Below, one piece after another: positions 37,861 through 41,225 of a stretch of 41,225 bases of DNA (positions are counted from its first letter, which is position 1; each line of letters opens with the position of its first letter). Made by a program: the position numbers and the translations under genes. The notes below the pieces were generated by a model that saw nothing but the letters and a program-made list of their open reading frames with translations, searched no databases and was not told the origin of the DNA. The DNA lies in contig JAFTJQ010000057.1 in NCBI GenBank assembly GCA_017456285.1, positions 1 through 41,225 on the forward strand, written 5' to 3'. Origin of the DNA: Lentisphaeria bacterium. GTDB taxonomy: Bacteria > Verrucomicrobiota > Lentisphaeria > Victivallales > Victivallaceae.

Positions 37861-37937
37861 GGGGCAGTAGCTCAGTTGGCTAGAGTATCACACTGGCAGT
37901 GTGAGTGTCGAGGGTTCGAGTCCCTTCTGCTCCACCA
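37861..37937 (+). tRNA. tRNA-Ala (anticodon GGC)
   Basis: 77 bases including an encoded CCA end. The acceptor stem GGGGCAG pairs with CTGCTCC and contains the G3-U70 wobble that marks alanine tRNAs. The D arm is GCTC/GAGT, the anticodon stem TCACA/TGTGA with loop CTGGCAG (anticodon GGC), and the T arm GAGGG-TTCGAGT-CCCTT. All arms pair well. It lies at the edge of the island to its right; no second copy of its 3' end is visible in this window. Confidence 0.96.
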
Positions 37938-38099
37938 TTTACAAATTCTCAAGAGTTCAGTCAAGTATGATTGAACTCTTTGTTTTTATAGTGTTTTGTA
38001 CCTGTACCGCAATGGTTTACAGCAAATTCATTCTGTAGCTGTTCTCTCCATAGAGAACCACATAGACTCTCAAAAGCGTGTGTTTGAATAGAAATCTCC

Positions 38100-38255
38100 G
38101 GAAATTCTCTGCTATGTAAAGGTCGGCGACCTTTATGTATGGCTTTTCATGCAAAGTTTTAGAGATAAGAGATTTACAGAAGCACACGGCACAATAGAGC
38201 CAAATTCTCCGTTTCATGCCATAAAAAACAGAGAATTTCCCAGCCGACCTTTACA
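38100..38255. repeat. two interleaved perfect inverted repeats (A-B-A'-B' order)
   Basis: Arm A GGAAATTCTCTG (38100-38111) is the reverse complement of 38229-38240. Arm B TGTAAAGGTCGGC (38115-38127) is the reverse complement of 38243-38255. Because the order is A, B, A', B', the 12-pair and 13-pair stems cross, which is pseudoknot topology rather than a simple hairpin. Gaps within the pairs of arms are three and two bases. A further stem TATGGC/GCCATA (38138-38143, 38218-38223) fits between B and A'. B also forms a local hairpin AAAGGTC-GGC-GACCTTT that would compete. Confidence 0.75.
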
Positions 38256-38277
38256 AAGACCTTTATAAAAAACTGTG

Positions 38278-38392
38278 GAAAAATTCTCAAAAATCATACT
38301 TTTGAGCGTAAAATCCTCAAAAACAATAGTCGGGGTTTCAAATTGAATACACTTAAAATGACCATTCTTGAACCTTGAAAAATTCTCAAAAA
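38278..38392. repeat. 16-bp direct repeat containing AAATTCTC
   Basis: GAAAAATTCTCAAAAA occurs at 38278-38293 and 38377-38392. Its core AAATTCTCAA is also found at 37943-37952 directly after the tRNA. Confidence 0.7.
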
Positions 38393-38445
38393 GTTTGCTT
38401 CAATCAAAAATATCCACAACACCTGACTTTTGCTTTTCGGGCAAA

Positions 38446-38476
38446 GAAAAAAGCAGTCTGGAATTTTAATCCAGAC
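38446..38476 (-). terminator. rho-independent terminator of the island operon
   Basis: GTCTGGA (38456-38462) pairs with TCCAGAC (38470-38476) around a seven-base AT loop. On the minus strand the hairpin is followed by TGC and a run of six Ts. It lies 18 bases past the HTH gene stop. Confidence 0.85.
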
Positions 38477-38493
38477 CGCGAGATGACGGAGTT

Positions 38494-38877
38494 TTAGATA
38501 AGACCAAAATATTTCTTTTGCTCTTCCCAATTTTCAGGCCAGCTTTTCCGCAATGTTTCCATTGAAATGCTCTTTTTCAAAGTCCCATGCAAAATGGCAT
38601 GAATGATTTCCGGGGCAAGCAATGTCAATCTGACTGTTCGAGCTACATAGGCGGTGTCCTTCCCTACCGCCCTTGCCAGTTCTATGGCGTTACTGTATGT
38701 TCCGGAATCAATAAGTTCCTGCCAGCGGAAGGCTCTTGCGAGATTCAAAACAAGCGGATCCACCAACTTTTCAGAATCATCAGGCACAATAATCCGTTTT
38801 CTGCCTGCACAATGCCGGAACGACATTGGAATGGTCAACTTGACATTGCCATTTTCAAGGATTTCAATCTTGGTCAT
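38494..38877 (-). CDS. small HTH protein linked to the serine recombinase
   Basis: A 127-residue protein. Its first 30 residues are beta-like (KIEILENGNVKLTIPMSFRH). The middle, about 55-95, is a KorB/ParB-like helix-turn-helix (SNAIELARAVGKDTAYVARTVRLTLLAPEII). Its start overlaps the end of the recombinase gene by 14 bases, so it is translationally coupled and likely acts with it, perhaps as a directionality factor, DNA-binding partner or repressor (inference). Proteins of this form are found next to DUF2924/recombinase pairs in other phage-like islands. Confidence 0.75.
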   Translation of the reverse strand: MTKIEILENGNVKLTIPMSFRHCAGRKRIIVPDDSEKLVDPLVLNLARAFRWQELIDSGTYSNAIELARAVGKDTAYVARTVRLTLLAPEIIHAILHGTLKKSISMETLRKSWPENWEEQKKYFGLI

Positions 38878-40141
38878 TTACAATTGTCTCCATCATCGAT
38901 TTTATGTTTTCTGTCCGCAGTACGACTTCCATTTTATCTTCCCATATTGTTACGGTTTCCACCAGAAGCGTTACCAGACGGTTGTATTCTCCGGGAGTAA
39001 TTTCATTCCAGAATTCATCCTTAAAACAAGTTATTACTTCATGGGGAGAAAGTCCGGATTTTTCTGCGAATTGCAAAGTCAAGGACAGATCTCCAAGCAT
39101 TTTCTGCAACTGTCTCTTTACGATCCGCTCAACATCCTCTGCCGGTATTTGATGAACGGGACATTCTGCAATGCCCCGTCTGGCATCCTTGCAACACAAA
39201 TAATAAAAATATCTTTGACTGCCACGGGATGTGTATGTCGGCATCATTGCTCCACCACAGTGACCACATTTTAGAACATTTTTCAAAGGGGCAATAATTC
39301 CTTGCCGGTCTTTGGTTTCTTTGTTCCGGTCATTCTCTTTTAAGATTTCCTGAACTCGATTCCATACTTCGCTGGTAACAATTGCTTGTTGTTCGCCTTT
39401 GCAAATCGCATCTTTGTATTTTACCTCTCCAATATATGTATGATTGTTGAGCATCCGGTAAATATGATCACGCTGCCATGGATTACCAGCCCTTGTACGA
39501 AGTCCGGCTTGATTAAGTTCGCTTGCTATCAGTTTGGGCGATTGAACTTCAATAAAACGCTGGAATACTGCTCGAACAATTTCTGCGTCTTCCTCTTTTA
39601 TAACAAGTTTCTTATTTACAACAATATATCCAAACGGAACAGTCCCGCCCACAAACATGCCTTTTTTGCGACTGGCTTCCATTTTATCCTGTACCCTTTG
39701 AGCAATAATTTCGCGCTCAAACTGGCTGAAAGTGATCAAAATATTCAGCATCATTCGCCCGGAAGGTGTCGCTGTATTGATTTCCTGGGTCACTGCGACA
39801 AACTGAACACCCCACTCATCAAATTTCTTTGACAGGTCGGCAAAGTCGCAAATTGATCGGGAAAGACGGTCGATTTTATAAACAACAATAATATCCACCA
39901 ATCCGGCTTCGCAATCGCTGAGCAGTCGTTGTAACGCAGGGCGGTTGGTATTTCCCCCAGTGTATCCTCCGTCATCGTAATGCTCTGGCAAGCACACCCA
40001 TCCGTTGGATTTCTGACTTAAAATAAATGCTTCTCCGGCTTCTCTTTGAGCATCAAGACTTGAAAATTCAACATCTGAATCTTCCTGCATGACGCTCTTT
40101 CTACAATAAATTGCACATCGTTTTTTTACAACTTCCGACAT
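38864..40141 (-). CDS. large serine recombinase (site-specific integrase)
   Basis: A 425-residue recombinase that cuts and rejoins DNA through a phosphoserine link. The resolvase domain covers about 8-150, with YCRKS placing the catalytic serine at S16, and KIDRLSRSICDF, FSQFEREIIAQR as further landmarks. The recombinase domain follows (LIASELNQAGLRTRAGNPWQ). Then comes a zinc ribbon, CGHCGGAM...CC, with the last Cys pair near AECPVH. It is at the short end for the class, with a brief C-terminal coiled coil. Its ATG shares one base with the DUF2924 stop (TAATG). It is expected to mediate integration of the island; the crossover site is not identified. Confidence 0.93.
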   Translation of the reverse strand: MSEVVKKRCAIYCRKSVMQEDSDVEFSSLDAQREAGEAFILSQKSNGWVCLPEHYDDGGYTGGNTNRPALQRLLSDCEAGLVDIIVVYKIDRLSRSICDFADLSKKFDEWGVQFVAVTQEINTATPSGRMMLNILITFSQFEREIIAQRVQDKMEASRKKGMFVGGTVPFGYIVVNKKLVIKEEDAEIVRAVFQRFIEVQSPKLIASELNQAGLRTRAGNPWQRDHIYRMLNNHTYIGEVKYKDAICKGEQQAIVTSEVWNRVQEILKENDRNKETKDRQGIIAPLKNVLKCGHCGGAMMPTYTSRGSQRYFYYLCCKDARRGIAECPVHQIPAEDVERIVKRQLQKMLGDLSLTLQFAEKSGLSPHEVITCFKDEFWNEITPGEYNRLVTLLVETVTIWEDKMEVVLRTENIKSMMETIVNDQD

Positions 40142-40575
40142 TATTTCACCCCGAAGAATTTTTTCCCGTTCCAGTGAGTGCCTGTGATCTTATCGGCAAT
40201 TGCGGAAAGGGAACGGTACATTTCACCCTCAAATTCAAATTTATTATTGGGATGAACAATGACTTCATATGTTTTGCCTTTCCAATCCCTGCAAAGCCGA
40301 GTGCCTCTGGCAAGCGGTCGTGGAGTAACATTCGAAAATTGCAAGTTTGATGCCGGATCATTATTGGCAATTTCCGTCAGCGACGCTTTATCTTCGTCTG
40401 ACAAACCTCCAAAATAAATCTCCTGCAATTTATATGCAATACGATTTCTCAAATTCTTTGCATTGGTTGCGCCGCACTCAAAACCGAAAAGTTCTGAAAA
40501 CTTTTCTTTGAGAGCAGCAACATTACAATTTTCCAATGCTGTAATTTGCCGTTGTAAAATTTCTTTTTTATCCAT
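40141..40575 (-). CDS. DUF2924-family protein
   Basis: A 144-residue protein matching DUF2924 by pattern: a helical N-terminal half (LKEKFSELFGFECG, then NLRNRIAYKLQEIYFGGLSD) and a C-terminal part RPLARGTRLCRDWKGKTYEV followed by YRSLSAIADKITGTHWNGKKFFG. That second half resembles a small SH3-like or MTH538-type DNA-contact module. The molecular role is not established. It is repeatedly found upstream of serine recombinases in phage-like islands, as here. Start: GAGGAAAT before ATG 40575. Confidence 0.85.
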   Translation of the reverse strand: MDKKEILQRQITALENCNVAALKEKFSELFGFECGATNAKNLRNRIAYKLQEIYFGGLSDEDKASLTEIANNDPASNLQFSNVTPRPLARGTRLCRDWKGKTYEVIVHPNNKFEFEGEMYRSLSAIADKITGTHWNGKKFFGVK

Positions 40576-40606: not shown

Positions 40607-40714
40607 TCATCCTTGTAACTTTTGGCAAGACTTCTCTTTAATTCGCCTTAAAATTGCTGAAATAAGATCTGTTGCTTGCCGAATATGCTCCGGATTTTCT
40701 TTTCTAATAACCAT
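40607..40714 (-). CDS. 35-residue protein, first of a paralogous pair
   Basis: A tiny frame (MVIRKENPEHIRQATDLISA, then ILRRIKEKSC...) with a good ribosome site (AGAGGTGG) seven bases before the ATG. Its core PEHIRQA-DLI-AILRRIK matches the next upstream frame at 18 of 20 positions (18 identities by eye, the rest conservative). Such protein-level conservation between two adjacent frames shows both are translated. It should form one amphipathic helix. Function unknown; it sits between the terminase and DUF2924 genes. The gap to the DUF2924 start is 31 bases. Confidence 0.75.
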   Translation of the reverse strand: MVIRKENPEHIRQATDLISAILRRIKEKSCQKLQG

Positions 40715-40769
40715 AACCACCTCTCTGTTTCAGGTTGTAACTAATTCAGACCGTGCCATATATAAAGCA

Positions 40770-40877
40770 TCATACAGGTGATTTATCCAGTCGACTTGCT
40801 TTGATTCTGCGCAGAATTGCGGCAATAAGGTCAACAGCCTGCCGGATATGTTCGGGATATTCCTTTTTATCAGCCAT
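40770..40877 (-). CDS. 35-residue protein, second of a paralogous pair
   Basis: Begins MADKKEYPEHIRQAVDLIAA and continues ILRRIKASRLDKSPV, sharing the core PEHIRQA-DLI-AILRRIK with the frame at 40607-40714. The start codon lies inside the end of the terminase gene (eight-base overlap), and AAGGAG precedes it by five bases, so translation is coupled to the terminase. The DNA of the two copies differs at many third positions, while the protein core is kept, which indicates selection on the peptide. Function unknown. Confidence 0.78.
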   Translation of the reverse strand: MADKKEYPEHIRQAVDLIAAILRRIKASRLDKSPV

Positions 40878-41225
40878 TTTTGCTCCTTCTGATATCTGAA
40901 AGTTTCATTTTGCCGCTGGTGGTGGGTTGCGGTCTTTCCCCGATGCGGCGATCGGAAAGACGTATCATTGGTTTGCGAGCAGCTTTCACCGGCAGAGTTT
41001 CCGGGAGAGCAGCTCCGAGCATGGAGGCACAGACAGCACATCCTGCGATACAGTCAAGCCAATGGTTGTCAGTCCGGTCGGGTTTGAGCTTCCATTCGTC
41101 AACTGTTCTGCCGCGACCTTGGGTCTTGACTTTGTATTCGGCGGTCAGATGTTCTGCCAGGAGCTGATGTACTCCGGGAATCCTGCCGTACAAAGAAAGA
41201 TTGCCTTTTTCGCCGAGTTCCACCG
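40870..41225 (-). CDS. phage terminase large subunit, GpA-like (C-terminal part; runs off the window)
   Basis: Only the last 118 or so residues are in the window; the 5' part lies to the right. The stretch EYKVKTQGRGRTVDEWKLKP followed by DNHWLDCIAGCAVCASMLG is the conserved end of GpA-type (lambda-like) terminases, in which this Asp/His-containing region closes the nuclease domain. The tail after it is basic (RPQPTTSGKMKLSDIRRSKNG). It belongs to a different terminase family from the one at 27201-28445. Confidence 0.85.
   Translation of the reverse strand, partial: VELGEKGNLSLYGRIPGVHQLLAEHLTAEYKVKTQGRGRTVDEWKLKPDRTDNHWLDCIAGCAVCASMLGAALPETLPVKAARKPMIRLSDRRIGERPQPTTSGKMKLSDIRRSKNG

Follow-up and report, generated by a model that had tools for sequence, protein, structure and literature searches.

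What do two very small reading frames, placed between a terminase gene and a recombinase operon, contribute to a phage-like element? The question is raised by one end of a 41,225-nucleotide stretch of DNA from a Lentisphaeria bacterium (contig JAFTJQ010000057.1), which was analysed as a whole and is referred to here as the window. On the minus strand at the window end, the genes follow one another in the order terminase 3' end, small helix protein copy 1, small helix protein copy 2, DUF2924, large serine recombinase, and ParB-HTH (Table 1).

Table 1. Positions of the two small frames and of the features surrounding them in the window
Feature	Position	Strand	Remarks
Terminase large subunit, gpA-like, 3' end	40870..41225	-	Cut by the contig end; a neighbour outside the conserved unit
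Small helix protein copy 1, 35 aa	40877-40770 (40770..40877)	-	MADKKEYPEHIRQAVDLIAAILRRIKASRLDKSPV; C-terminal tail cut by a premature TGA
Promoter-like motif TGGATA-N17-TTTATA (or N18 with TTATAT)	40761..40789	-	In the decayed tail of copy 1; oriented towards copy 2 and the recombinase operon
Small helix protein copy 2, 35 aa from ATG	40714-40607 (40607..40714)	-	MVIRKENPEHIRQATDLISAILRRIKEKSCQKLQG; tail lost or frameshifted
DUF2924 protein	40141..40575	-	PF11149, E=1.6e-39
Large serine recombinase	38864..40141	-	Resolvase, Recombinase, and Zn ribbon
ParB-type HTH protein	38494..38877	-	Last gene of the cassette
tRNA-Ala(GGC)	37861..37937	+	Adjoins the cassette; plausible integration site

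Two one-helix proteins under constraint

A preliminary description of this DNA had proposed two separate, paralogous 35-residue frames, and both are indeed present. Their products are 60% identical, and when copy 1 was used as a query against the organism's own whole genome, it matched itself and copy 2 alone (E=1.1e-7); the likeness of the two is therefore not due to chance. The good ribosome sites described for the frames (AAGGAG and GAGAGGTGG) were also found, as was the start of copy 1 within the terminase stop region, where its ATG and the terminase TGA overlap by 8 nt. An in-frame GTG at 40720 is a possible alternative start of copy 2, whose stop codon lies 31 nt from DUF2924. Moreover, the view that third-position differences reflect constraint at the protein level was borne out: over the 22-codon helix, differences between the copies affect 15 of 16.7 synonymous but only 9 of 49.3 nonsynonymous sites. 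Both frames thus encode real one-helix proteins under protein-level constraint. They are old paralogues; a recent duplication was rejected, since synonymous change has reached saturation and the relative at locus L074 is closer to copy 1 than copy 2 is.

The proteins had tentatively been pictured as single amphipathic helices. AlphaFold2 does predict one helix, which spans residues 9-31 and whose core reaches block confidences of 93 and 85; amphipathy, assessed by the hydrophobic moment, holds for copy 2 (p=0.01) but is not clear for copy 1 (p=0.12). Relatives mostly measure 45-90 aa and usually occur as single copies, and many carry an in-frame C-terminal tail (LDK...LYI...KGV in Lentisphaerota) that is absent from both window copies: copy 1 is shortened by the premature TGA in its decayed tail, and the tail of copy 2 has diverged, probably through a frameshift. 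The length of 35 aa is therefore derived. Because the shortest relatives, of 24 aa, have no tail, this element is common but not needed for membership. Genes of this size had been expected to escape routine annotation, and family libraries do miss them. The window copies matched no family in Pfam or PHROGs, and eight relatives gave no credible family match in Pfam, NCBIfam (a scan that took in relatives only), or PHROGs. A sequence search of the PDB returned only weak beta-lactamase matches without meaning.

A family in front of DUF2924 cassettes

The window frames almost certainly belong to a family of small proteins attached to DUF2924-recombinase cassettes, in which the order is small helix protein, DUF2924, large serine recombinase, and ParB-HTH. 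They share the strand of DUF2924, lie directly upstream of it, and carry the helix core of the family, PxxIRQAxxLIxAxLRRI, which is under purifying selection (helix dN/dS of 0.13 among ten tailed Lentisphaerota relatives and 0.31 among 35 alpha-proteobacterial loci). Members are found directly upstream of DUF2924 cassettes in Lentisphaerota, Alphaproteobacteria, and desulfo-type and Acidithiobacillus-type elements. This one-helix family is undescribed; it is a new family and the fourth part of a mobile integration cassette.

As a direct query for related loci, the small protein proved too short or too diverse; sampling was based on DUF2924 and yielded 125 loci from viral and genome contigs; for most of them, the upstream region was read. 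Among the loci examined, from Lentisphaerota, Acetobacteraceae, Rhizobiales, Rickettsiales, and desulfo-type bacteria, the majority have a small frame encoding a similar helix ahead of DUF2924. Within the phylum, the small protein occurs in 11 of 195 genomes, and 10 of these 11 are among the 34 genomes with DUF2924 (chance expectation approx. 2). In a positional test, Lentisphaerota proteins were compared with 21,296 six-frame ORFs from 90 loci of other taxa, 239 of which occupy the slot directly upstream of DUF2924. At E<=1, all 26 matches of the query from L169 and all six of the query from L074 fell into this slot, matches that are not all independent because many of the loci are related; the query from L028 gave a single match at this threshold, in the slot but in another frame. 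Profile comparison linked the alpha and desulfo groups well (96%); the hhalign link between the Lentisphaerota and alpha groups was weak (17%), and a profile of 26 Lentisphaerota helices, used alone, found no significant alpha match and did not pick out the alpha slot. Homology between the Lentisphaerota and alpha-proteobacterial proteins is suggested by single-sequence searches together with position.

The preliminary description had assigned the frames a fixed place between terminase and DUF2924-recombinase, and one side of this place has held. DUF2924-recombinase is the constant neighbour, whereas the terminase is optional: in relatives, the gene upstream may be a sigma-like gene, one of several variable genes, or an unrelated phage gene. 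In the window and in many Lentisphaerota phages, the small gene does overlap the terminase stop. In Acetobacteraceae, a shared block of approx. 2.3 kb extends from the small gene to near the 3' end of the ParB gene, and the flanking genes differ on both sides. Stop and start codons of the small gene and DUF2924 overlap (ATGA or TGATG) in at least 47 of 127 loci, as counted by a crude script; this coupling is absent in the window and several other loci. Copies that do not adjoin DUF2924 keep the helix. At three alpha-proteobacterial loci (L108, L110, and L135), the cassette is flanked by variable, defence-like genes (HsdR-like, AAA ATPase, QatC-like), as judged by eye only.

Natural recombinants separate the cassette into parts. 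Two loci from different families of one order (L016 and L018) share 95-100% DNA identity over a stretch running from the terminase to the recombinase catalytic domain and including the small gene and DUF2924, but beyond this breakpoint identity falls to 64% in the C-terminal part of the recombinase and 56% in ParB at the protein level. Conversely, in two prophages of a single genome (L161 and L018 in G011), the terminase is 97% identical as far as the small gene's start codon; past this codon, the small proteins are 24 and 47 aa long, DUF2924 is only 44% identical, and the recombinase differs too. These breakpoints imply that the small gene travels with DUF2924 (and, in the first pair, with the catalytic domain) and not with the terminase or the target-reading part of the recombinase. 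Across L016, L017, L018, and L019, recombinase catalytic domains are identical while the C-terminal domain and the ParB-HTH gene are swapped, suggesting that these may be target-site modules exchanged as a unit.

Stop codons and frameshifts, which had been named as evidence against the two frames if present in related islands, do occur there, mainly in the C-terminal tail; nearly all relatives retain the helix. The exceptions are a few broken alpha-proteobacterial copies (in L106, L126, and L130, the helix part is broken and the tail DNA conserved) and two orphan remnants. These decaying copies, at approx. 6219 of L025 (genome G022) and approx. 783 of L027 (genome G064), lie before a sodium:alanine symporter gene with no DUF2924 nearby. 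Tandem pairs recur: L029 is arranged as in the window, in L031 the gene was duplicated along with the terminase end, and L044 holds a further pair, while two diverged copies are found in the L036/L038 and L037/L040/L046/L079 groups. The pair in the window exemplifies this recurring trend.

The same order is found in the sequenced temperate Acidithiobacillus phage AcaML1, where Gp5 is followed by Gp4 (DUF2924), Gp3 (recombinase), and Gp2 (HTH). Gp5 (AFU62850.1), a 'hypothetical protein' that has been neither named nor studied, comprises 63 aa with a helix and a tail and ends in a TGATG overlap; unlike in the window, the gene upstream of it is not recognisable as a terminase. The attB of the AcaML1 prophage is given as ssrA (printed 'srrA', with 'Int, Xis'; PMC3826726 Table 2). 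Two tandem ParB-HTH-like genes (Gp2 and Gp1; L185, 4706-5559) follow the AcaML1 recombinase and are annotated as 'recombinase small subunit' and hypothetical. The cassette adjoins the tRNA-Ala gene in the window (37861-38877) and a tmRNA gene in L086 (8877-9235).

DUF2924, the nearest partner of the small protein, is predicted to combine a helical N-terminal part with a DNA-binding part of the CcrM/RAMA type. In particular, the C-terminal part of the predicted structure matches CcrM (6pbd) over 54 columns at 2.3 A (E=0.67, probability 0.95), and a partial match of DUF2924 to RAMA has been described (PMC11342252). DUF2924 is thus probably itself a DNA-binding protein; the likeness to the RAMA domain, i.e., the C-terminal domain of CcrM, concerns this partner and not the small protein.

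The end of the small gene as DNA

The tail of the small gene behaves differently from the helix. Over its first 14 codons, the alpha-proteobacterial tail has a dS of 0.27, compared with 0.85 in DUF2924, and a dN/dS of approx. 1.2; a synonymous rate reduced to a third, combined with such a ratio, indicates constraint on the nucleotides. A conserved protein motif was accordingly rejected for the alpha-proteobacterial tail and is doubtful for that of Lentisphaerota. The alpha-proteobacterial sequence GTTCGC(C)TACACT is retained through a compensated frame shift. In Lentisphaerota, the tail terminates in the ribosome site of DUF2924 and the TGATG or ATGA overlap, and 18 of the 33 non-redundant loci carry the motif TKGMTA-N17-TTNWA there. 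At other spacer lengths, the count is 0-3, and mononucleotide shuffles give a mean of 0.04. Codon homology could account for the 17-bp spacing in copies where the motif is coding; however, the motif is also found where it is non-coding, namely after the stop codon of the small gene (L157, L160, and L161), out of frame (L034), behind the premature stop of copy 1 in the window, and in an intergenic region (see below).

The geometry of the motif is that of a sigma-70-type promoter, from which we infer a promoter function, although a simple sigma-70 promoter scan of the window did not call the motif at 40761..40789. Promoter-like DNA in the tail would explain why the window has lost the frame of this segment yet kept its DNA. 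A second, inverted copy (TGGATA-N17-TTRTAT) occurs in three lineages in an intergenic position approx. 2.6 kb upstream of the small gene and approx. 75 nt before another gene start (L018 at approx. 11021 and L019 at 11598 on the plus strand, L032 at approx. 3303 and L057 at approx. 3282 on the minus strand); these phages may share it as a promoter or operator. Two other explanations of the tail were set aside. No conserved fold was found in the alpha-proteobacterial tail and no match in Rfam, which argues against an RNA structure; an attachment site is not favoured, as blocks of similarity start at the small gene and stop near the 3' end of the ParB gene.

Possible roles of the helix protein

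Recombination directionality factors (RDFs) promote recombination between attL x attR and inhibit that between attP x attB; they share no common sequence. Those of large serine integrases (SPbeta SprB, phiC31 gp3, A118 gp44, skin, phi3T) resemble the helix protein in being small phage proteins encoded beside a large serine recombinase; a hydrophobic protein contact is plausible for the helix protein too, and RDF sequences are diverse by nature. The preferred reading, to which we give a probability of roughly 40%, makes the helix protein an accessory factor that serves the recombinase, perhaps as its RDF. It would dock either on the recombinase itself or on the DUF2924 partner, altering activity in the manner of an RDF. 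Excision control, one of the functions suggested in the preliminary description, is a possible role. With the promoter-like motif placed behind the small gene, the recombinase could be made without the helix protein: transcription from the tail motif would supply the recombinase alone and favour integration, whereas read-through transcription from upstream would supply both proteins and favour excision. In the window, where the motif lies between the copies, copy 1 would be carried on the terminase transcript and copy 2 on that of the recombinase.

RDFs are small and diverse, and their genes usually lie near that of the integrase (PMC6957869, PMC5814800); in SPbeta, the integrase and RDF genes are under separate promoters (PMC6957869). 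The small gene likewise lies in or beside a serine integrase unit, but it matches no described family in Pfam, NCBIfam, or PHROG, a match that an RDF need not show. Unlike known RDFs, the helix protein is tightly coupled to an extra DUF2924 gene and lacks a library match, and any likeness in function is putative. It differs from them, too, in that the same helix protein is paired with different C-terminal parts of the recombinase. RDFs are thought to bind the zinc domain of the integrase (PMC5814800), the part that is swapped here beneath an unchanged small protein; the occurrence of one small protein with two C-terminal parts counts mildly against RDF specificity for that part. A further objection to an accessory or RDF role comes from phage WO, in which DUF2924 directly precedes a large serine recombinase, as in the cassette (PMC10299305): no helix gene was found in this module, and an ankyrin-type gene precedes DUF2924. 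The broader proposal, that the cross-phylum one-helix family, down to its 24-aa members, provides DUF2924-type large serine recombinases with their directionality factor and that the gene end doubles as the recombinase promoter, is more tentative.

The very tight stop/start coupling to DUF2924 is no harder to reconcile with a constant subunit than with a regulated switch. The helix protein would then be made in step with DUF2924 and complexed with it as a DNA-binding adaptor needed in both directions of recombination. The overlaps at 47 loci or more point this way, as do the predicted helical and DNA-binding parts of DUF2924 and the fact that changes in the small protein accompany changes in DUF2924 but not those in the terminase or in the C-terminal part of the recombinase. 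However, the gap in the window and in several other loci breaks the coupling, an internal promoter-like motif would uncouple the two genes, and duplicated copies disrupt a one-to-one stoichiometry; a constant subunit is a possible but doubtful role. Autoregulation, in which the helix protein acts on transcription from the tail motif either directly or via DUF2924 or ParB-HTH, is unlikely. It would suit a promoter-like motif within the gene and the inverted copy before another gene in three lineages, but it demands regulation by a lone 22-residue helix without a recognisable DNA-binding fold, and the alpha-proteobacterial tail has no conserved RNA structure.

Slightly less likely still is a mere leader frame, whose translation matters for coupling and ribosome delivery to DUF2924 and whose peptide is functionless. 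The overlapping stop and start codons, the ribosome site in the tail, and the DNA-level constraint on the tail agree with it; the low dN/dS of the helix (0.13-0.31), the persistence of the peptide despite saturated synonymous change between the window copies, and the retention of the helix in copies away from DUF2924 do not. A partnership with the terminase or with packaging, which the place after the terminase had suggested and which the stop overlap in the window and many Lentisphaerota phages favours, is very improbable and was rejected, since the upstream gene differs in other taxa, the breakpoint at the start codon in G011 separates terminase from small gene, and linkage to the terminase is not conserved.

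Serine recombinases are widely used as genome tools. RDFs are difficult to recognise from sequence (PMC5814800); a family tied by position to a large recombinase group across phyla provides a ready list of candidate cofactors. It also shows that a conserved gene of 24-90 aa can escape family libraries, and the end of this gene appears to be kept as regulatory DNA rather than as protein. The placement of these serine recombinases at tRNA or tmRNA genes (tRNA-Ala in the window, tmRNA in L086, ssrA as reported for AcaML1) is worth mapping. If the directionality-factor reading is true, one short stretch of DNA would decide whether the recombinase is made with or without its factor.
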